Source of the DNA: an uncultured Bradyrhizobium sp.
GTDB taxonomy: Bacteria > Pseudomonadota > Alphaproteobacteria > Rhizobiales > Xanthobacteraceae
Reading direction: 5' to 3'
Assembly (NCBI RefSeq): GCF_947648125.1
Contig: NZ_CANSMR010000012.1
Coordinates: forward strand, 124,001-188,000
DNA length: 64,000 nucleotides
Positions 25,585 through 61,457 of this stretch are shown in pieces. The notes beneath the pieces are model-generated. The model worked only from the letters and a program-made list of their open reading frames with translations. It made no database searches and was not told the DNA's origin. The first letter of the stretch is position 1. The number at the start of each line of letters is the position of its first letter. The position numbers were made by a program, and so were the translations under genes.

Positions 25585-28500
25585 CTACTCCGGCCGGATC
25601 AACGCCACGACATCGCCCGCGCGCAGCGTCTGGCCGGGCTTGACCGGCACCGACGCAATCCTGCCCGCGCTTGGCGAATGCACGCTGATCTCCATCTTCA
25701 TGGACTCGATGATGGCAAGCACGTCGCCGGCCGCGACCACGGCGCCCTCCTCGACCAGGATCTTCCAGATGTTACCCGGCACTTCCGAAAAGGCGCCGAC
25801 CTGGCCGTCGGGAACGCCCGTCGAGGCGACACCCGCATCGATCGATTCAACCAACGTCTCGTCAAGCTTCATCTCGCGCCAGCGCTGGCGCTCGGCATCG
25901 AACGCGGCCTGCTGTGTCGCCTTGAACGCGGCGATCGACGGCTGCGCGTCGGCCAATGTCCTGGCATAGTCGGCGTAGGAGAACTCGTTCTGCTCGATCC
26001 TGATGTCGTATTGCCCGTGCGGGAATGCGGCGCGTGCATCCAGCAATTCATCGGCGTCGACCGGAAAGAAACGGATCTTGTCGAAGAACCGCAACAGCCA
26101 GGGATGACCGGGTTCGAACACCCGCGTGGTGCGCCAGGTGTTCCAGACCTGGATGGTGCGGCCGAACAGCTGGTAGCCGCCCGGCCCTTCCATGCCATAG
26201 ATGCACATATAGGCGCCGCCGATTCCGACCGCGTTCTCCGGCGTCCAGGTCCGTGCCGGATTGTACTTCGTGGTCACCAGCCGGTGCCGCGGATCGAGCG
26301 GGGTCGCCACCGGCGCGCCGAGATAGACGTCACCGAGGCCGAGCACGAAATAGTCGGCATCGAACACGATGCGGCGGACATCGTCCTCACTCGCAAGTCC
26401 GTTGATGCGCCGGATGAACTCGACATTCGACGGACACCACGGCGCATCGGCGCGGACCAGCTCCTGATATTTGCGCATCGCCAGCTCGGCCTCTGGATCC
26501 CGCCACGACAGCGGCAGATGCACGGTGCGGCTCGGCACCCGCATGGCGTCGACCGGCGGCAGGTCGCGCTCGATCCGCCTGAGCACATCGAGCAGCTTCG
26601 TTCGCGACAGCGCCGTGCCGTCATAATGGATCTGCAACGAGCGGATGCCGGGCGTCAGATCGATCAGGCCGCCGAGCTTCGCTTCCTCCAGCGCCTGCGC
26701 CAGTACATGGACGCGCAGCCGCAGCGCGATGTCGAGCTCCATCGGACCGTATTCGACCAGCAGATTTTCGTCGCCGGCGCGGCGGTAGACCACCGGGATC
26801 GGGCCATCATCATTGCGTCCGACAACTGCCGAGCCGAGCTCGGGCGCGCGCAGCACGGTTGGGCCGGCAACCGGATCGTTGCGTTCCACCGGCACGAAGC
26901 GGACGGTGTCGCCGGGCCGGAGCTGGCCGATCTTCCAGAGCTCGTCGCGCGCGACGACCGCCGGACAGACGAAGCCGCCGAGACTCGGTCCGTCCGGGCC
27001 GAGAATGATCGGCATGTCGCCGGTGAAATCGATCGAGCCCACCGCATAGGCGTTGTCGTGAATGTTCGACGGATGCAGCCCGGCCTCGCCGCCATCGGCG
27101 CGGGCCCAGCGCGGCTTCGGTCCGATCAGCCGCACGCCGGTCCGCGCGCTGTTGAAGTGCACCTCGTAGCTCGATGCGAACAGTGTTTCGATGTCCTCGT
27201 CGAGGAAGAAGTCCGGCGCACCATGCGGGCCATAGACCACGCCGATCTGCCACGCCGAAGTCAGCTCTGGCCGCTCGTCCTCCGCAGCGCGTCGCGGCGC
27301 GGCAAGGCTCGACGGCTCGGCGCCGATATGCAGCACGTCGCCGGCCTTCAGCGAGCCCGTCGCATGGCCGCCGAAGGCGCCGAGCGCGAACACGGCGCGC
27401 GATCCCAGGATCTCGGGCACGTCGATGCCGCCGCGCACGGCGAGATACGCGCGTTGGCCCGGGCCCCTGATACTGCCGAGGACGAGCGTCTGGCCTGCGC
27501 GTACCGCGACCGGCTCGTCATAGCCGACATCGGCGCCGTCGAGCGATGCCTTCATGCGTGCGCCCGACAGCGCGACGATCGATTCGGTATTGAAGCGCAA
27601 GGTCGGGCCGTTGACCGTCAGCTCCAGCGCCGTCGTTACTTCCGGATTTCCGACCACACGGTTGGCGAGACGAAACGACCGCTCGTCCATCGGCCCGCTC
27701 GGCGGCACGCCGACATGCCAGAGATGCAGGCGGCCGGGCAATTCCTGCACCCCGCTCTGCGCACCCGGTGCGACGACGTCGATGGTGCGGGGGCGATAGG
27801 CGAACGCGCCGAGCACGCTGGTTGCCACCTGCCCGCTGCGGAACACATCGGACGCGGCGATGGCGCGGAGATAGTCGAGATTGGTCTCGATCCCGGCGAC
27901 CACCGTGTCGTCCAGCGCCTGCGCCAGCTTCGCGATCGCGGCATTGCGCGTCTCGGCCGAGACGATGATCTTGGCCAGCATCGGATCATAGAACGGCGAC
28001 ACCTCGGTGCCGGTCTCGATCCAGCCGTCGATCCGCGCGTCCGGTGAAAAGCTGACCTGCGTCAGCCGGCCCGCGCTTGGGCGGAAGCCCGCGCCCGGAT
28101 TCTCGGCATAGAGCCGCACCTCGATCGCCGCGCCTTTTGGCGTCAGCGTGCCGACCTGGCCCAGCACGTCCTCGCCGGCCGCCTGCCGGATCATCCATTC
28201 GACGAGGTCGACGCCGGTGACCTGCTCGGTGACGGGGTGCTCGACCTGGAGACGGGTGTTGACCTCGAGGAAGTAGAAATCCTCGCGCGCGACATCATAG
28301 ATGAACTCCACCGTGCCGGCGGATTCGTAGGACACCGCCTTGCCGAGCGACACAGCAGCCGCGTGCAGCCGCCGGCGGATGTCCGCTGAAAGGCCCGGCG
28401 CGGGGGTCTCCTCAAAAACCTTCTGGTTGCGCCGCTGCAGCGAGCAGTCGCGTTCGCCGAGCGCGACCACATCGCCCTTGCCGTTGCCGAAGATCTGCAC

Positions 28501-29127
28501 CTCGATGTGCCGCGCGCGCGCCACGAACCGTTCGAGATAGACCCGGGCATCACCGAAGCTCGCGCGTGCCGTGCGCTGCACGGATTCGAACCGCTCGCGC
28601 AGCGTCGCCATGTCGTGGCAGAGCTGCATGCCGATGCCGCCGCCGCCCGCGGTGCTCTTCAGCATCACCGGAAAGCCGATCGCTTCCGCCTGTTGCACCG
28701 CCTCGTCGATCGTCTCCAGCAGGCCGGAGCCCGGCAGCAGCGGCACGCCGCTGCGCTCGGCGATCTCGCGCGCGCGGTGCTTGAGGCCGAAGGTGTCAAG
28801 ATGCTCCGGCCGCGGCCCGATGAACTTGATGCCATGCTCGGCGAGCCGCTCGGCAAAGCGGCGGTTCTCCGACAGGAAGCCATAGCCGGGATGGACCGCC
28901 TGCGCGCCGGTCGCGAGGCACGCCGCCATGATCGCATCGACGTTGAGATAGCTCTCCGCCGCCGGCGCCGGGCCAATGCGCACCGCCTCGTCAGCCTCCA
29001 GCACCGGCCGCGTGAAGCGGTCGGCGTCGGAATAGACCGCGACCGAGCCGATGCCCATGCGGTGCAATGTTCTGCCGATCCGCCCGGCGATCTCGCCGCG
29101 GTTGGCAATCAGGACCTTGCTGAACAT
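25585..29127 (-). CDS. uca: Biotin-dependent urea carboxylase family enzyme, probably guanidine carboxylase
   Basis: 1180 aa. Residues 1-450 are biotin carboxylase (KVLIANRGEIAGRIGRTLHR, STAGGGGIGMQL, FLEVNTRLQVEHPVTE). Residues about 460-770 are a KipA/AHS2 domain (WHVGVPPSGPMDERSFRLAN). Residues about 775-1000 are a KipI/AHS1 domain. The C-terminal biotinyl domain has K1144 in ESMKMEIS. The family carboxylates urea to allophanate or guanidine to carboxyguanidine with ATP and bicarbonate. The guanidine-I riboswitch in the leader and the adjacent DUF1989 pair argue for guanidine. It is the last gene of the operon, and no allophanate hydrolase follows. Confidence 0.92.
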   Translation of the reverse strand: MFSKVLIANRGEIAGRIGRTLHRMGIGSVAVYSDADRFTRPVLEADEAVRIGPAPAAESYLNVDAIMAACLATGAQAVHPGYGFLSENRRFAERLAEHGIKFIGPRPEHLDTFGLKHRAREIAERSGVPLLPGSGLLETIDEAVQQAEAIGFPVMLKSTAGGGGIGMQLCHDMATLRERFESVQRTARASFGDARVYLERFVARARHIEVQIFGNGKGDVVALGERDCSLQRRNQKVFEETPAPGLSADIRRRLHAAAVSLGKAVSYESAGTVEFIYDVAREDFYFLEVNTRLQVEHPVTEQVTGVDLVEWMIRQAAGEDVLGQVGTLTPKGAAIEVRLYAENPGAGFRPSAGRLTQVSFSPDARIDGWIETGTEVSPFYDPMLAKIIVSAETRNAAIAKLAQALDDTVVAGIETNLDYLRAIAASDVFRSGQVATSVLGAFAYRPRTIDVVAPGAQSGVQELPGRLHLWHVGVPPSGPMDERSFRLANRVVGNPEVTTALELTVNGPTLRFNTESIVALSGARMKASLDGADVGYDEPVAVRAGQTLVLGSIRGPGQRAYLAVRGGIDVPEILGSRAVFALGAFGGHATGSLKAGDVLHIGAEPSSLAAPRRAAEDERPELTSAWQIGVVYGPHGAPDFFLDEDIETLFASSYEVHFNSARTGVRLIGPKPRWARADGGEAGLHPSNIHDNAYAVGSIDFTGDMPIILGPDGPSLGGFVCPAVVARDELWKIGQLRPGDTVRFVPVERNDPVAGPTVLRAPELGSAVVGRNDDGPIPVVYRRAGDENLLVEYGPMELDIALRLRVHVLAQALEEAKLGGLIDLTPGIRSLQIHYDGTALSRTKLLDVLRRIERDLPPVDAMRVPSRTVHLPLSWRDPEAELAMRKYQELVRADAPWCPSNVEFIRRINGLASEDDVRRIVFDADYFVLGLGDVYLGAPVATPLDPRHRLVTTKYNPARTWTPENAVGIGGAYMCIYGMEGPGGYQLFGRTIQVWNTWRTTRVFEPGHPWLLRFFDKIRFFPVDADELLDARAAFPHGQYDIRIEQNEFSYADYARTLADAQPSIAAFKATQQAAFDAERQRWREMKLDETLVESIDAGVASTGVPDGQVGAFSEVPGNIWKILVEEGAVVAAGDVLAIIESMKMEISVHSPSAGRIASVPVKPGQTLRAGDVVALIRPE

Positions 29128-29130
29128 GCC

Positions 29131-29769
29131 TCACGCCTCCGGCTCGAAGATCGCGACCTGCACGGGCGTCGGGAAGAAGCCGTTGCAGGGATTGTTGATC
29201 TGCGGGCAGTTCGAGATCAGGCACAGCACATCCATCTCGGCAACCAGCTCGATCGCATCACCGGGCTTGGAGACGCCGTCGACCACGGTGAAATTGCCGG
29301 CGGGATCGATCGGCACGTTCATGAAGAAGTTCAAATTCGGCACGATGTCACGCTTCGACATGCCGTATTTCGCAGCTTCCAGCACGAAGTTCTCGCGGCA
29401 GGCGTGCTGGTAGCGGGTCTGGTGCCCGAACCGCACGGTGTTGCTTTCGCAGGAGCAGGCGCCGGCCGAGGTATCATGCAGGCCGCAACTATCAACCGTG
29501 ACGCGCAGCATCACCCGGCCTTCATTGGACATGACCCGGGTGCCGAGCCCGACATAGGCCGAGCCCTGCGCGCGCAGCGTATCCTGGCCGCTGTAGCGCT
29601 CGCCAAGATCGTCGGCGCGATAGAACAGCGTATCGACCGCCTGCTGGCCATGGGTATCCGTGATCCGCAGCGTCTGCCCCTTGCGGATGACGGAGGACCA
29701 CGGCTTGCGTGCGGGAATTTCCACGTCGAGAACGATGCGGCCGCGGGTCTGAGCGGATTGCGTGGTCAT
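29131..29769 (-). CDS. DUF1989 protein UAAP2 type, probable carboxyguanidine deiminase subunit
   Basis: 212 aa. It shares the DUF1989 core with the next gene upstream: VIRKGQTLRITDTHGQQAVD, YSGQDTLRAQGSAYVGLGTR, the Cys-rich CGLHDTSAGACSCESNTV, LNFFMNVPIDPAGNFTVVDG and a C-terminal LISNCPQINNPCNGFFPTPV with likely metal-binding Cys/His. Proteins once called urea carboxylase-associated have been reassigned as the two subunits of carboxyguanidine deiminase, which turns carboxyguanidine into allophanate and ammonia. It starts in a 4-bp overlap with its partner and ends 3 bp before the carboxylase gene. Confidence 0.88.
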   Translation of the reverse strand: MTTQSAQTRGRIVLDVEIPARKPWSSVIRKGQTLRITDTHGQQAVDTLFYRADDLGERYSGQDTLRAQGSAYVGLGTRVMSNEGRVMLRVTVDSCGLHDTSAGACSCESNTVRFGHQTRYQHACRENFVLEAAKYGMSKRDIVPNLNFFMNVPIDPAGNFTVVDGVSKPGDAIELVAEMDVLCLISNCPQINNPCNGFFPTPVQVAIFEPEA

Positions 29770-30611
29770 TGCACGGCTCCTTCGCTGGTCTCGCCGAGAT
29801 ACAGCGCATTGTTCTCATAAGCGCGGATCGCCTCGGCCGTCGCGGTGCGGCACAGATCATCGGCGGCGGGCGCGCCCGCGCGATAGCGCACGATCTCCAC
29901 GCTCGCTCGCGGATAGCTTTCCGCGGGATCGAGCGGATGCGGGCAGTTCGACAGCGCAATGAGCAGGTCCATCTCCGCGCGCAGATCGACGAAATCTCTC
30001 TTTTGCCGACGCGCGTCGGACCAGGCAAACTTGCCGTCCGCGTCGATCGCAACCGGTGCAAAGAAGCTGACGCAGGGATGGACGTCGCGGCGATCGAGCC
30101 CGAGCTTGGCCGCAGCCAGGACGAAATTGTCGCGCGTATTGCGGAAACTCCCTTCGCCGTACTTCGCCAGGTTGGTCGCCGCGGTCGAGCCGCCGACCAC
30201 GGCATCATGCGCGGCGCTGCTGTCCTCGGTGATGCCGAGCAGCGCGCGCCCCATGTCCGACAGCAATACGCGTCCCTTCTGCAAGCGCGCCGCCCACTGC
30301 ACCTTGATTGTGTCGGCGTGGTTAAGCCGCTCGATGGGATCGGCGGCATTCCAGGCGAGTAGGCTGACGGTCGATGTCCCCAGCGTGTTGACGATGCGCA
30401 GCGTATCGCCGCGGTTCAGCCTGGTCGTCCAGTACCAGCCGGCCGGAATCACCTCCCGATGAATGATCGTGTCGGCGGCGATTGGCGCAGCGGCGCGCGA
30501 GGTCGGCGCCGGCAGCGCACGCGGAGCATGCTCCTGCCCTGCCGCCTTCAGCTCGTTGTAGCGTCGCGCATGCGCGGCGATCTCGGCCTTCTGTTCCTCT
30601 GTGAGGATCAT
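29766..30611 (-). CDS. DUF1989 protein UAAP1 type, probable carboxyguanidine deiminase subunit
   Basis: 281 aa, the longer of the two DUF1989 paralogues. Core motifs include VIPAGWYWTTRLNRGDTLRI, RLQKGRVLLSDMGRALLGIT, HPCVSFFAPVAIDADGKFAW and ALSNCPHPLDP. The N-terminal 45 residues are an extra helical, charged segment (EEQKAEIAAHARRYNELKAA). It should form a heteromer with the UAAP2-type protein and act on the product of the carboxylase. It overlaps the ATPase gene upstream and the UAAP2 gene downstream by 4 bp each. Confidence 0.88.
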   Translation of the reverse strand: MILTEEQKAEIAAHARRYNELKAAGQEHAPRALPAPTSRAAAPIAADTIIHREVIPAGWYWTTRLNRGDTLRIVNTLGTSTVSLLAWNAADPIERLNHADTIKVQWAARLQKGRVLLSDMGRALLGITEDSSAAHDAVVGGSTAATNLAKYGEGSFRNTRDNFVLAAAKLGLDRRDVHPCVSFFAPVAIDADGKFAWSDARRQKRDFVDLRAEMDLLIALSNCPHPLDPAESYPRASVEIVRYRAGAPAADDLCRTATAEAIRAYENNALYLGETSEGAVQ

Positions 30612-31441
30612 GGTTGCTCCTTCAAGACGAGAGCGCCGGGCCGTCCCGGCTGATGCTCCTGGTCTGACCGGGTCGTCCCGATCGGAGCTGGTTGAACTGG
30701 TGACCGCAGCTCGGCGCTGCGGCGTGGAAAGATCTCGAGGTCGCGCGACACCGTGGCGCCGTAGCGCTCGCGCTCCTCCGGGCGGTTGCGCTGTCGCTCC
30801 AGCGCGATCACACGCGTTGCGAGACCGAAGGCCTCGCTGAGGTCATGCGTCACCATCACGACCGTCAGATGGGTCTCGTTCCAGAGCCGCTTCATCAACA
30901 GATGGATGTCGGCGCGAATGCCCGGATCGAGCGCGCCGAACGGCTCGTCGAGCAGCAGGATCTTTGGCTCGCGCATGATCGCCTGCGCCAGCGCGAGGCG
31001 CTGCTGCATGCCGCCCGACAGCGCGGAGGGATATTTACTCTCCTGACCGGCGAGTCCGACCTCGGCGAGCAGCTTCATGGCCTCGTCGGTCGCGGCACGC
31101 CGCGCGGCGCCGAACAGCCGGGCGGTGAATTTGGCGTCGCGCAATTCGCGGCCGAGCATGACGTTTTGCAGCACGGTCAGATGCGGAAACACCGAGTAGC
31201 GCTGGAACACCACGCCGCGATCGGCATCCGGCTCGGCACGCAACGGCTTGCCGTCGACCAAAATCTGCCCGCGGCTCGGCTGCTCCTCGCCGAGCAGCAT
31301 CCGCAGCAGCGTGGTCTTGCCGCAGCCGGACGGACCGACCAGCGCAATGAAGGCGCGCGGCTCGACCTCCATCGTGATGCGCTCGAGCACGATGTGATCG
31401 CCGTATTCCTTCCAGACGTCGTCGAACCGGATCGCGCTCAT
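30608..31441 (-). CDS. ABC transporter ATP-binding protein (SsuB/TauB type) of the guanidine operon
   Basis: 277 aa from the ATG at 31439-31441; a longer open frame upstream merely reads through the permease gene in the wrong frame. Walker A is GPSGCGKTT, the signature is LSGGMQQRLALA, Walker B is ILLLDEPFGALDP, and the H-loop is MVTHDLSEAFG. About 45 residues at the C-terminus (after NRPEERERYGATVSRDLEIF) are a non-conserved tail. It overlaps both neighbours by 4 bp, so it is translationally coupled to the permease and the UAAP1 gene. Confidence 0.92.
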   Translation of the reverse strand: MSAIRFDDVWKEYGDHIVLERITMEVEPRAFIALVGPSGCGKTTLLRMLLGEEQPSRGQILVDGKPLRAEPDADRGVVFQRYSVFPHLTVLQNVMLGRELRDAKFTARLFGAARRAATDEAMKLLAEVGLAGQESKYPSALSGGMQQRLALAQAIMREPKILLLDEPFGALDPGIRADIHLLMKRLWNETHLTVVMVTHDLSEAFGLATRVIALERQRNRPEERERYGATVSRDLEIFPRRSAELRSPVQPAPIGTTRSDQEHQPGRPGALVLKEQP

Positions 31442-32256
31442 TCCGCCCTCACCGACGCAAACCAGGGAAACAGCCTGCGCTGCATGACGCGCAGGCCGAC
31501 ATCGATCAGGAACGCCAGCAGCGTGATCCAGGCGACGTAGGGGATGATGACGTCCATCGCGAGATAGCGACGCACCAGGAATATCCGGTAGCCGAGCCCG
31601 GAGTCGGATGCGATCGCCTCGGCCGCGATCAGGAACAGCCAGGCCGGGCCGAGCTGCAGACGCAGCACGTCGATCAGCCGCGGCAGGGTTTGCGGCATCG
31701 CAACGCGCAGCGCGATCTGCCAGGTCGAGGCGCCGAGCGTCTGCGCCTTGACGATCTGCTCGCGCGGCAGCTCCTGCACCTTCATGGCGAGGTCGCGGAT
31801 CATGCAGGGCAGCGTCCCGATCACGATCAGCGCAATCTTCGAATTCTCCCCGAGGCCCATCACGATGAACAAGATCGGCAACAGCGCCAGCGGCGGCACC
31901 ATCGAAGTCACCGACACGAACGGCCCGAGCAGGGCATTGGCGCCCGGCAACAGGCCGATCACGATGCCGAGAACGAGCGCCGCCACCGTCGAGATCGCCA
32001 GCGCCGACCCCAGCCGCCCCAAGCTGGCGACGGTGTCGGAGGCCATCAGATAGCTGCTGGTGCGCGGATCGACCTCGAACGCCATCTGCTTGACGGCCTG
32101 CACCATGTTCGGCAGCGCCGGCAGCAGCTTGTCGTTCGGGTTTTGCGCGAGCCGCGCGCTGGAGCCGACGAAGTAGGCGATTGCGACCAACAGGAACGGC
32201 AGCGCGAGCAGATAGAATCGCGTCTGCCGTCCCGGCCGTATGTTCACAAGTCGCAT
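31438..32256 (-). CDS. ABC transporter permease (SsuC/TauC type) of the guanidine operon
   Basis: 272 aa with about six membrane segments. The first is near residues 10-30 (FYLLALPFLLVAIAYFVGSS). The BPD-type coupling loop is recognisable in AQTLGASTWQIALRVAMPQT. The family moves small nitrogen or sulfur compounds across the inner membrane. Position between the binding protein (46 bp upstream) and the ATPase (4-bp overlap) indicates one complete importer, and the operon's riboswitch suggests guanidine or a guanidino compound as cargo. Confidence 0.92.
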   Translation of the reverse strand: MRLVNIRPGRQTRFYLLALPFLLVAIAYFVGSSARLAQNPNDKLLPALPNMVQAVKQMAFEVDPRTSSYLMASDTVASLGRLGSALAISTVAALVLGIVIGLLPGANALLGPFVSVTSMVPPLALLPILFIVMGLGENSKIALIVIGTLPCMIRDLAMKVQELPREQIVKAQTLGASTWQIALRVAMPQTLPRLIDVLRLQLGPAWLFLIAAEAIASDSGLGYRIFLVRRYLAMDVIIPYVAWITLLAFLIDVGLRVMQRRLFPWFASVRAE

Positions 32257-32302: not shown

Positions 32303-33376
32303 TCAGAGCTTGCCTTTGGCGGCTTCGTCCATCCAGGTCGGGTCGAAGCGCAGCTTGACGTTCGACTTGTCGCCCAGCACCGACTTGTCGGCGAGCTCGA
32401 TCCCGACCGCGTCGACCGACTTCGCGCCCTTGCCGAGCAGGTCCTTCTCGAACAGGAACTTGCGCACCCGATCCATGGTCACGCCGATGGTCTGGCTGCG
32501 CGTAAACGCTTCCGCGTCCGTTGCCTTGTCGAACAGTTTTGTGGTCGAGAGCTGGCTGTCGAAGCCGGCGAGATCGGTGCCGGAGGCCTTGGCCATCGCC
32601 TCCTTGGCGGCCTTCGCCGCGGGATCGTTCGCCGTCATCCTGGAGAGCGTCTCGTACCAGATGCCGACCAGCGCCTTGGCGAAATCCGGATTGTCCTTGG
32701 CGACCGCCGTGTTGACCACCATCAGGTCCATGATCTCGCCGGGAATCTGCGAGGAATCGAACACCTTCTTCGCATCAGGCGAGCCGAGGATTTCCGTCAC
32801 GATCGGATTCCAGGTCACGACCGCATTGACGTCGGGCGTCTTGTAGGCGGCGGCGATATCGGCATCGGACGTGTTGACGACCTTGACGTCCTTCTCGCTC
32901 AGCTTGCTGGTCTCGAGCGCGCGGGCGAGCAGATAGTGCGACACCGAGAATTCGACCAGGTTGACCGTCTGTCCCTTGATCGCGGCGAGATCCGACTTGT
33001 TCTTGAGGATCACGGCATCGTTGCCGTTGGAGAAATCGCCCATCACGACCGCGGTGGTGTCGACGCCACCGGCGGCCGGGATCGACAGCGCGTCCATGTT
33101 GGTGATGGTGACGGCGTCATAGCCGCCGGCGGTGTACTGGTTGATCGATTCGACGTAGTCGTTGAATTGCTTGACCTCGATCGTGATGCCGTATTTGTCG
33201 GCCCACTTCTTGACGATGCCGGTGTCGGCCGCATAGCCCCACGGCATCCACCCGACATAGATCGACCAGGCGACCTTGAAGCTTTTCTTCGGTGCGGCGT
33301 CAGCGACGGATGCGGCCGCGAGCACGATCGCGCAGCCGATGACAACAGAGCGGAGGAAGAAAGAGAACTTGTTCAT
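32303..33376 (-). CDS. ABC transporter substrate-binding protein (NMT1/TauA-like) of the guanidine operon
   Basis: 357 aa from the ATG at 33374-33376, with GAGGG about 8 bases upstream. The signal peptide is MNKFSFFLRSVVIGCAIVLA, cleaved near ADAAPKK. The mature protein has KVAWSIYVGWMPWGYAADTG, typical of the taurine/urea/nitrate-type binding proteins of this operon class, and VTITNMDALSIPAAGG. It is the first gene after the riboswitch leader. Ligand assignment to guanidine is inferred from that leader and the enzymes downstream. Confidence 0.92.
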   Translation of the reverse strand: MNKFSFFLRSVVIGCAIVLAAASVADAAPKKSFKVAWSIYVGWMPWGYAADTGIVKKWADKYGITIEVKQFNDYVESINQYTAGGYDAVTITNMDALSIPAAGGVDTTAVVMGDFSNGNDAVILKNKSDLAAIKGQTVNLVEFSVSHYLLARALETSKLSEKDVKVVNTSDADIAAAYKTPDVNAVVTWNPIVTEILGSPDAKKVFDSSQIPGEIMDLMVVNTAVAKDNPDFAKALVGIWYETLSRMTANDPAAKAAKEAMAKASGTDLAGFDSQLSTTKLFDKATDAEAFTRSQTIGVTMDRVRKFLFEKDLLGKGAKSVDAVGIELADKSVLGDKSNVKLRFDPTWMDEAAKGKL

Positions 33377-33402
33377 TGCCGATCCCTCTTGCGAAACTTC
33401 AC

Positions 33403-33444
33403 AAAAAGGGACTGGCGAAAAGACCATCGCTCCGCCAATCCCTT
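33403..33444 (-). terminator. Intrinsic terminator forming the riboswitch expression platform
   Basis: On the minus strand AAGGGATTGGCG (33444-33433) pairs with CGCCAGTCCCTT (33417-33406), a 12-bp stem with one G-U pair, and TTTTT follows. The first two bases of its 5' arm are also the end of aptamer stem P1. Ligand-stabilised P1 would therefore disfavour the terminator, giving an ON switch. Confidence 0.85.
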
Positions 33445-33561
33445 GGCTAACGAGGTCTCCCGGGCTTTTATCCCGCCGTGCACCTGCGGGGATGTCTCCC
33501 CCGCAAGCGGCTGCTCTCGGACCAGCACCTTGTGTATCAAGGTCGGAACCCTAGCGGCCAA
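33443..33561 (-). promoter_or_regulatory. Guanidine-I (ykkC) riboswitch aptamer
   Basis: Reading the minus strand, the conserved ykkC elements occur in order: GCTAGGGTTCCG (about 33555-33544), CTGGTCCGAGAG (about 33526-33515), then ACGGCGGGATAAAAGCCCGG (about 33479-33460) followed by GAGA. Flanking TTGGC (33561-33557) and GCCAA (33447-33443) form stem P1. This is the established consensus of the guanidine-I class. It sits between a sigma-54-like promoter and the binding-protein gene of the operon and is followed by a terminator. Confidence 0.95.
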
Positions 33562-33575
33562 CTCGACGCCATTGA

Positions 33576-33591
33576 TGCACGAGGCGTGCCA
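33576..33591 (-). promoter_or_regulatory. Sigma-54 (RpoN) promoter of the guanidine operon
   Basis: The minus strand reads TGGCACGCCTCGTGCA, matching TGGCACG-N4-TTGCA except for one T to G, with GG and GC elements at the required 12-nt phase. Transcription would start near 33565, just before aptamer stem P1 at 33561. This agreement of promoter and aptamer positions supports both calls and implies NtrC-type nitrogen control. Confidence 0.82.
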
Positions 33592-33606
33592 CAGCACCGG
33601 CGTTTG

Positions 33607-33620
33607 AATCTCATGAGATT
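33607..33620. promoter_or_regulatory. Perfect 14-bp palindrome upstream of the sigma-54 promoter
   Basis: AATCTCATGAGATT reads the same on both strands and lies about 45 bp upstream of the predicted transcription start, AT-rich in GC-rich surroundings. It could bind a regulator. It is not an NtrC consensus site. Confidence 0.45.
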
Positions 33621-34291
33621 TTTCGGCGCGCGTGGCGCGGCTGCGAGAACGCTCTGCTTAAAAACTACGCAGGCCTGCTCAGATTTGGCTCTGTCATTCC
33701 GCCGGTGACGTCAGCAGGATGCCTGCGATCGCTGATGTCGAGGGGACGTTCGATGCAAATGCTCTTGAGTGCCCTCTGGCGCGGACTGCATGGCCGCTAC
33801 GGCCTGACGCCGCAATGCGACGTCGGCGGTCCGAACAGGACCGGGACGCGGGCTCACCGATACGCAGCCATACCCTGATCGATGCGAGTTGGACGAGCGC
33901 AGGGTAGATGGCAGCAAGCCTGTCCTATCGCGTCGCGCCCCGACGACGTCGCTTTAATCTATTGACCTGGGGCTCGCAGTTCGAACGACGGAGACTCTGT
34001 TCTCGCGCTCAGCCCGTCAGAGATGAGGCTCGCCGGGCATTGGGGCTACCCCTTCTGAGCCGACCAGCCTGCTGGCAGAAACGTTCTTGATCGGTTGGCT
34101 GCAAGATTCGCTTCGGGAATTGGCGGCCAGTCCGCCCTGCCGGAGGACTGCCCCGTAATCCGGACTTGTAGGACTCTCGATCCGCTGTCATGTTGGAACA
34201 TGCGGAACTCGCATGGCTGTTGCCCAAAACGGGCCGGCGCCACCATAAGCAGGGGCGAACCAACGCGCCGGTTTTTGGGATCGAGACCGAC
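33621..34291. other. Non-coding stretch of about 670 bp between divergent operons
   Basis: No protein-coding gene could be supported. A 41-codon plus-strand frame at 33753-33878 has no clear ribosome-binding site support and no recognisable motif. Enhancer sites for the sigma-54 promoter should lie in the left part, and the promoter of the acyl-CoA synthetase operon in the right part. TCCGGACTTGTAGGACTCTC near 34158 and the AT-poor flanks show nothing decisive. Confidence 0.5.
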
Positions 34292-61257: not shown

Positions 61258-61369
61258 ATTGTTCATCGGCCACCGTGATGCCGATGAAGCCTTGAACGCA
61301 GAATACAAATTGGCGATCCGACAAGCGCCGAATTGGATTCTCAGTTCACTCCGAGAAAGACGGTCCAAG

Positions 61370-61401
61370 AAAAAAGGGCCGCTTGAATGAACAAGCGGCC
61401 C
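61370..61401 (-). terminator. Rho-independent terminator of the small-RNA candidate
   Basis: GGGCCGCTTG and CAAGCGGCCC (61376-61401) form a perfect 10-bp stem with a 6-nt loop. On the minus strand TTTTTT follows directly (61375-61370). On the plus strand no T-tract follows, so it ends a minus-strand transcript, and no protein gene on that strand leads into it. Confidence 0.88.
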
Positions 61402-61457
61402 AAGTCTAGGGAGGAAACGCCCAAGGAGGGCAGCGATAGCGCGAGGCGCTACCGCAC
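61370..61457 (-). ncRNA. Candidate trans-acting small RNA with anti-Shine-Dalgarno CCUCC motifs
   Basis: About 88 nt between a promoter-like pair and a terminator. Predicted structure from the 5' end: stem TAGCGC/GCGCTA with a 3-nt loop; stem GCCC/GGGC whose loop exposes CCTCCTT as GCCC-TCCTT-GGGC; a single-stranded TTTCCTCCC; then the terminator hairpin. Exposed CCUCC in loops and linkers is a hallmark of alphaproteobacterial sRNAs that bind ribosome-binding sites. Specific family membership was not determined. Confidence 0.7.

Follow-up and report, generated by a model that had tools for sequence, protein, structure and literature searches.

A sigma-54 promoter, a Guanidine-I leader and an internal Guanidine-II aptamer in a putative guanidine assimilation operon of Bradyrhizobium sp.

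Genes and elements of the operon

The window (the whole stretch of 64,000 nucleotides of an uncultured Bradyrhizobium sp. that was analysed) was found to contain one operon on the minus strand, in which the gene of a substrate-binding protein was followed by the presence of genes for a permease, an ATPase, UAAP1, UAAP2 and a 'urea' carboxylase of 1180 residues (Table 1). The first ATG of the frame was chosen as the start of the ATPase gene (31441). The enzyme genes, the two aptamers and the promoter at its conserved position were established by sequence comparison. The UAAP family is the one which we take to be COG3665.

The operon shared 89.9% identity across 7.1 kb with a locus of Bradyrhizobium pachyrhizi and 92.7% identity across 3.2 kb with B. 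tropiciagri (L211, L219). By profile matches, the genome contained the complete pathway set of importer, carboxylase, two deiminase subunits and allophanate hydrolase. The allophanate hydrolase, which catalyses the last step, was located outside the operon on another contig (G000:C7:180887-182548, L315; 801 bits), and a sigma-54 site matching 12/12 positions was found near its putative start. A single rpoN match was present in the genome, together with one NtrC protein over the NCBIfam curated cut-off and other NtrC-like proteins of 408, 373 and 342 bits, all below it. Guanidine carboxylase and carboxyguanidine deiminase are the present names of such proteins (Schneider et al. 2020, as given in the available text of PMC12508155); the guanidine specificity of the enzymes is taken from the literature, the NCBIfam names reading urea.

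The Guanidine-I match was the sole copy found by the Rfam scan of the 8.57-Mb genome. The RF00442 covariance search bore out the ykkC/Guanidine-I aptamer of the original prediction, which had been made from the letters of the DNA, and the aptamer would be expected to bind guanidine.

Table 1. Coordinates of the operon genes and of the elements upstream of and within the operon
Feature	Position	Strand	Remarks
NtrC-type dyad TGCGTAGTTTTTAAGCA (TGC-N11-GCA)	33655..33671	-	centre at about -98 from the expected start
Sigma-54 -24/-12 promoter TGGCACGCCTCGTGCA	33576..33591	-	11/12 scored positions of TGGCAYRN4TTGCW
Guanidine-I riboswitch aptamer	33455..33565	-	RF00442, 95.3 bits, gathering 63, E 4.9e-16, model 1-107 (full length)
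P4 hairpin (GGAGACC...GGUCUUUU)	33418..33460	-	takes up the conserved 3' GGAGA of the aptamer; proposed OFF state
Strand A AAGGGAUUGGCG	33433..33444	-	pairs with B (proposed ON state); 5' arm of the originally predicted terminator
Strand B CGCCAGUCCCUU	33406..33417	-	pairs with A or C; U-run 33407..33403
Strand C CAAGAGGGAUCGGC	33378..33391	-	Shine-Dalgarno region of the first gene, from folds and leader comparison
Substrate-binding protein of ABC importer	32303..33376	-	TIGR03427 'putative urea ABC transporter', 552.1 bits, cut-off 333.9
ABC permease	31438..32256	-	taurine/nitrate-type permease models, scores below their cut-offs
ABC ATPase	30608..31441	-	frame passes through the Guanidine-II aptamer; its TGA overlaps the next ATG
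GCUCC, predicted anti-Shine-Dalgarno	30684..30688	-	pairs with GGAGC 30620..30616; energy folds only
Guanidine-II riboswitch aptamer	30636..30684	-	RF01068, 42.5 bits, gathering 32; within the ATPase frame
UAAP1	29766..30611	-	TIGR03425, 287.4 bits, cut-off 205.95; carboxyguanidine deiminase subunit by current naming
UAAP2, second deiminase subunit	29131..29769	-	TIGR03424, 323 bits, cut-off 284.7
'Urea' carboxylase, guanidine carboxylase by context	25585..29127	-	TIGR02712, 1829.7 bits, cut-off 1303.85

Alternative pairings in the Guanidine-I leader

Strands A and B were found to form a 12-bp hairpin (AAGGGATTGGCG/CGCCAGTCCCTT, 33444..33433 with 33417..33406) followed by the presence of five T nucleotides. 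The hairpin was present in the minimum-energy fold of the RNA cut at 33400, whereas in the fold including the Shine-Dalgarno sequence and the start codon it was replaced by P4 and by the B-C pairing, which covers the Shine-Dalgarno sequence. The A-B hairpin was not listed by a simple terminator scan, its 15-nt loop being over the limit of the scan.

The pairings were compared among 20 leaders beginning with ACCTC or GCCTC, which were used from 64 non-redundant leaders out of 120. Pairing within each leader was found to exceed pairing swapped between leaders for A-B (p <= 0.00005), B-C (p <= 0.0002) and P4 (p <= 0.00025), whereas in the same-sense control A-C the own pairing was no better than the swapped one in these 20 leaders (p = 0.53). 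An alternative motif-filter run, in which L082 (similar to L062) was added, gave A-B <= 0.00005, B-C 0.00015, P4 0.00015 and A-C 0.66. L088 was cut at a chosen start codon, and the starts as detected gave p <= 0.00055 for B-C. With 8 leaders, B-C (p = 0.0013) and A-B (p = 0.033) were supported and P4 was unsupported (p = 0.14). On these comparative grounds, A-B on the one side and B-C with P4 on the other were established as mutually exclusive pairings. Of the minimum-energy folds of the 20 tails, 15 contained B-C, 3 contained A-B and 2 contained neither pairing, and a U-run of at least four nucleotides after the hairpin was found in 5/20 leaders and was absent in 15/20.

Since the own A-B, B-C and P4 pairings were supported and the U-run was scarce, the conserved switching logic looks translational, and the predicted 'terminator' appears better explained as one arm of a device that regulates translation through the Shine-Dalgarno sequence of the first gene. 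The Guanidine-I platform thus seems to act here on translation rather than on termination. The A-B conformer would be the ON state with guanidine bound, the energy folds being silent on the ligand-bound conformer.

In the original prediction the same hairpin was read as a terminator; in a termination switch of this kind, A-B and the U-run would terminate transcription without guanidine and would not do so with it. Such a switch would agree with the usual role of Guanidine-I as a transcriptional ON switch (available text of PMC12186494), with the 12-bp stem and the five T of this clade, formed in the shorter fold, and with the five leaders that retain a U-run. It is considered unlikely, however, since the U-run is absent from the other fifteen, the complementarity between strand B and the Shine-Dalgarno sequence is kept from lineage to lineage, and the hairpin is missing from the fold that includes the start codon. 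Of the prediction, the hairpin and its five T were borne out and the terminator as a conserved output was unsupported; termination at the U-run could coexist with translational control in this clade. The original prediction also had the terminator share two bases with P1. The overlap helix X-X' (UUGGC/GCCAA), tried as a switching contact, showed no lineage-specific pairing (p = 0.69 with 8 leaders and p = 0.96 with 20) and was rejected in this role; probably neither the terminator nor the P1 overlap is the device that switches.

A second leader type with GTGC... at the 5' end of the aptamer was found in 17 non-redundant leaders (L077, L080, L090, L091, L094, L096 and others). An outer helix was visible in these leaders, as was, in 12/17, a TCCCGG stretch complementary to the 3' end of the aptamer, and they probably contain another platform.

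The sigma-54 promoter and the upstream dyad

The promoter was found to contain the letters TGGCACG-CCTC-GTGCA, with GTGC instead of TTGC in the -12 element and with the GG and GC dinucleotides at the fixed spacing (TGGCAC-N5-TTGC context). The near-consensus TGGCACG-N4-gTGCA promoter of the original prediction was thus recovered, with its place conserved among the loci. The position of C(-12), 33577, places the expected +1 at 33565, where the Rfam match begins, 6 nt ahead of P1. This distance is close to the 'about 4' bases originally claimed, and transcription would start at the first aptamer base or at most a few bases away. A sigma-70 promoter was sought as the source of the transcript, and none was found in 33350..33800. 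A perfect palindrome, AATCTCATGAGATT (33607..33620), was located upstream of the -24 element and centred about 49 nt before the expected start; it was exact in 8/11 clade loci and absent in L065 and L082, and it could be the site for a further regulator.

The recurrence of the promoter was scored at 100 Guanidine-I loci, consisting of 48/49 matches from relatives (G097 excluded) and 52/58 from a phylum draw, those not already included, with tandem copies within one genome counted separately. The own class (Alphaproteobacteria) and the other classes were assigned by the kinship labels of the locus matches. To assign gene classes, the first five predicted frames were clustered by BLAST, and the clusters were named by the proteins of the window and by a few Pfam scans (two EamA-cluster members and one arginase-cluster member; cluster c5 had no Pfam match). 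Loci encoding importer, deiminase, carboxylase or arginase-family genes were taken as assimilation loci (n = 85), and a sigma-54 site was called at 10/12 positions or more with invariant GG and GC in the 100 nt that precede the aptamer.

A sigma-54 site was found in 74/85 assimilation loci vs 0/14 EamA loci and 0/1 other (Fisher p = 1.2e-10), a contrast that confounds gene function with aptamer subclass because the aptamers of all 14 EamA loci and of L183 scored below the RF00442 cut-off and those of all 85 assimilation loci above it. By non-redundant groups the site was present in 50/61 assimilation vs 0/6 comparison groups (p = 1.2e-4), and by class in 37/45 assimilation loci of the own class and 37/40 of the other classes. 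Control searches gave 0-1/85 in shifted windows and 0-4/85 with wrong spacers. In a narrower window of -60..+5 (65 nt) the site was found in 43/100 loci, compared with 0-5 for wrong spacers (spacer 5 gave 5), 1 on the reverse strand and 0-1 in shifted windows, and shuffled upstream windows gave a mean of 0.36 per 100 with a maximum of 3 (at least 10/12). The distance from C(-12) to the aptamer was 13-17 nt in 37/37 own-class positives and 36-86 nt in the 37 other-class loci. The site was below threshold in 11/85 assimilation loci (L086, L089, L153, L159, L160, L167, L172, L173, L177, L180 and L181), and of these L167 and L180 share the operon layout described here.

The same promoter-riboswitch pairing recurs, by sequence, in most assimilation loci examined from relatives, and the probable double gate, which the original prediction held to be more unusual than either part, is widespread among them (74/85) and no oddity of this genome. 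The EamA-family leaders contain the same or a related aptamer class, some of them in the same genus, and differ in being without the sigma-54 site. The 14 Guanidine-I-like aptamers ahead of EamA genes (L097-L101, L182, L184-L191) scored 36.6-58.4 bits, below the RF00442 gathering threshold, and may represent a divergent subclass. Among 17 Guanidine-II loci outside the operon, no sigma-54 site was found (at least 9/12, within 200 nt); 14 of the 17 precede an SMR/gdx-like frame as judged by eye. The second Guanidine-II aptamer of this genome likewise precedes a gdx-like frame (by eye).

Upstream of the promoter, the dyad TGC-N11-GCA, presumably the geometry of NtrC dyads, was found in 23/37 own-class sigma-54 loci, compared with 1-7/37 for other spacings (N7-N10, N12-N15). 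In the other-class sigma-54 loci it was present in 11/37 vs 2-8 with other spacings, and by non-redundant groups in 19/50 vs 2-6. A stricter NtrC-type consensus, TGCACY-N5-RGTGCA, was matched at 10/12 or more in 17/74 sigma-54 loci vs 0-5 for six other spacers; all 17 matches were in the other classes and none in the own-class loci, and the best score of the EamA loci was 8/12. A search of the own genome with TGCNNNNTTTTTNNGCA gave 4 matches vs 3 for the reversed control, and no clear nitrogen gene was seen beside the remaining three matches. The upstream regions of the three P-II genes of the genome were mixed, L193 being without the exact dyad and without a sigma-54 site.

NtrC is the likely activator of the operon promoter. 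Nitrogen-scavenging promoters of the glnK-amtB, ure and nas type are known to depend on sigma-54 and NtrC, and the -24/-12 element, the upstream dyad and the nitrogen targets are common to these promoters and the present one. Unlike in those promoters, the transcript is here expected to start at a ligand-binding aptamer, so that promoter and ligand sensor would act in series. Another activator (e.g. NtrX or a local enhancer-binding protein), with which the second input would not be general nitrogen limitation, would accommodate the departure of the own-class dyad from the stricter consensus, the lack of the dyad in 31/50 groups and the extra NtrC-like proteins below the cut-off; the enrichment of the TGC-N11-GCA geometry, the nitrogen-scavenging nature of the targets and the allophanate hydrolase with its own sigma-54 site argue against it, and it is considered rather improbable.

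The Guanidine-II aptamer and the proposed regulation

The Rfam scan of the window revealed a Guanidine-II aptamer, missed in the original prediction, ahead of the deiminase genes, 25 nt before the UAAP1 start and 2.8 kb downstream of Guanidine-I. Its hairpin loops were found to contain ACGA and ACGG (ACGR type). A Guanidine-II aptamer at or above gathering was present at the ATPase-UAAP1 junction in 20/20 own-class loci read with UAAP1 directly after the ATPase. In 16/20 the ATPase frame spans the entire aptamer (L062-L064, L066-L072, L078, L081, L167, L170, L171 and L180); in the remaining four, the ATPase stops in the linker (L065, L082) or the aptamer is outside the frame (L087, L092). By pattern, no Guanidine-II was seen in own-class loci of other layout (L085, L086, L088, L093), and in the other classes a Guanidine-II-like loop pair was found after UAAP2 in 20 loci, 11 of the 12 scanned with Rfam passing gathering.

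In 11 own-clade loci the UAAP1 Shine-Dalgarno sequence was predicted to be almost completely sequestered by an upstream GCUCC (unpaired probability 0.00-0.01), in 7 others it was partly open (0.24-0.54), and ribosomes reading on from the ATPase could counteract the sequestration. Among the 25 codons from aptamer to stop in 11 aligned loci, 6 were variable, all of them amino-acid-changing and none synonymous only, compared with 121/147 variable codons synonymous only and 26/147 amino-acid-changing in the ATPase core (p = 5.6e-5); since all changes there are nonsynonymous, it is the RNA and not the protein that is conserved in this stretch. The ATPase stop and the UAAP1 start overlap as ATGA in the 11 own-clade loci and in L081, L170 and L171, a coupling layout by which UAAP1 expression could be set with the aptamer idle, as a remnant or a decay element, and this is considered very unlikely given the aptamer at or above gathering in all 20 loci and the codon pattern pointing to RNA conservation.

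The linkers of L065 and L082 were found to contain a Shine-Dalgarno-like GGGAGC or AGGAGC followed by the presence of ATGA. The linker ATG is in frame into UAAP1 in L065 and out of frame in L082, where it opens a 15-codon frame ending at the UAAP1 start.

The operon is best explained, with a probability of roughly 0.7 for the explanation as a whole, as one for the uptake and degradation of guanidine under three gates in series. At the first gate, transcription by sigma-54 RNA polymerase, for which NtrC acting under nitrogen limitation is the most likely activator, would start at the first base of the Guanidine-I aptamer, give or take a few bases. At the second, guanidine would let A pair with B and free the Shine-Dalgarno sequence (C) of the first importer gene; in its absence the 3' end of the aptamer would fold into P4 and B would pair with C, so that translation would be off. 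At the third, the Guanidine-II aptamer in the end of the ATPase gene would hide or free the UAAP1 Shine-Dalgarno sequence and so control the translation of deiminase and carboxylase. Ligand binding and the effects on expression of the operon are those expected from the elements found in the DNA. The double gate of the original prediction, sigma-54 transcription and guanidine together, is likely right, with strong comparative support from the recurrence at the loci, the right spacer only, the fixed place and the dyad, and it is incomplete in that the Guanidine-II aptamer would add the third gate.

The guanidine carboxylase operon of Vreelandella boliviensis contains a Guanidine-I leader and an internal Guanidine-II, both aptamers having been probed with guanidine (available text of PMC12508155), and two-riboswitch guanidine operons have been published in gammaproteobacteria, including enterobacteria (available text of PMC12186494). 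The same pathway genes and both riboswitch classes are found there in one operon, as here. Guanidine-II is located between cgdB and gca in those operons, whereas the Guanidine-II of the present operon precedes UAAP1 and is embedded in the ATPase frame; their position matches the other-class candidates after UAAP2 in the present comparison. A sigma-54 promoter is not mentioned in the available parts of these operon descriptions (PMC12508155, PMC12186494). In a 2025 study of the sigma-54 regulon, 102 COG3665 genes of alpha-, beta- and gammaproteobacteria are given in the available text as being under sigma-54 control, with 'urea carboxylase' as the annotation of 59% of them, and nitrate-type ABC genes are listed as well, the word guanidine being absent from that text (PMC12316311). 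The terms 'urea carboxylase', 'urea amidolyase' and 'riboswitch' were absent from the available text of a Bradyrhizobium RpoN paper (PMC13207237), and the term search gave no match in that of a P. stutzeri NtrC paper (PMC8443478). A link between sigma-54 or NtrC and guanidine was not found in print in the open-licence papers searched.

Guanidine riboswitches serve detoxification and feeding alike. From the comparison, feeding operons seem to have a nitrogen-control promoter in addition (74/85), which the transporter-only loci examined are without (0/14, with the aptamer confound, and 0/17 for the Guanidine-II loci outside the operon). As a tentative rule for Pseudomonadota, held at somewhat less than even odds, assimilation would use a sigma-54 (NtrC) promoter leading into a guanidine riboswitch, export would respond to guanidine alone, and alphaproteobacteria would have a three-layer AND gate. 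If the rule is true, the sigma-54 promoter fires straight into the riboswitch, so that nitrogen hunger and guanidine must coincide, and the assimilation genes of Pseudomonadota are predicted to be silent in ammonium even with guanidine present. The Guanidine-II aptamer of alphaproteobacteria would then sense within a translated frame, where enzyme synthesis would depend jointly on guanidine and on the ribosomes arriving from the importer gene, and would be an example from nature of a translational riboswitch within a coding region.

Scanning of named genomes for the pattern, a search that picks out its own target and so cannot serve as a test, gave at least 119 stretches, with Acinetobacter, Mesorhizobium, Rhizobium, Devosia, Azospirillum and Pseudomonas among the matches listed. 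Elsewhere in the window, a suhB/mmgR small RNA (RF00519) was matched by Rfam on the minus strand at 61438..61362 with 74.3 bits.
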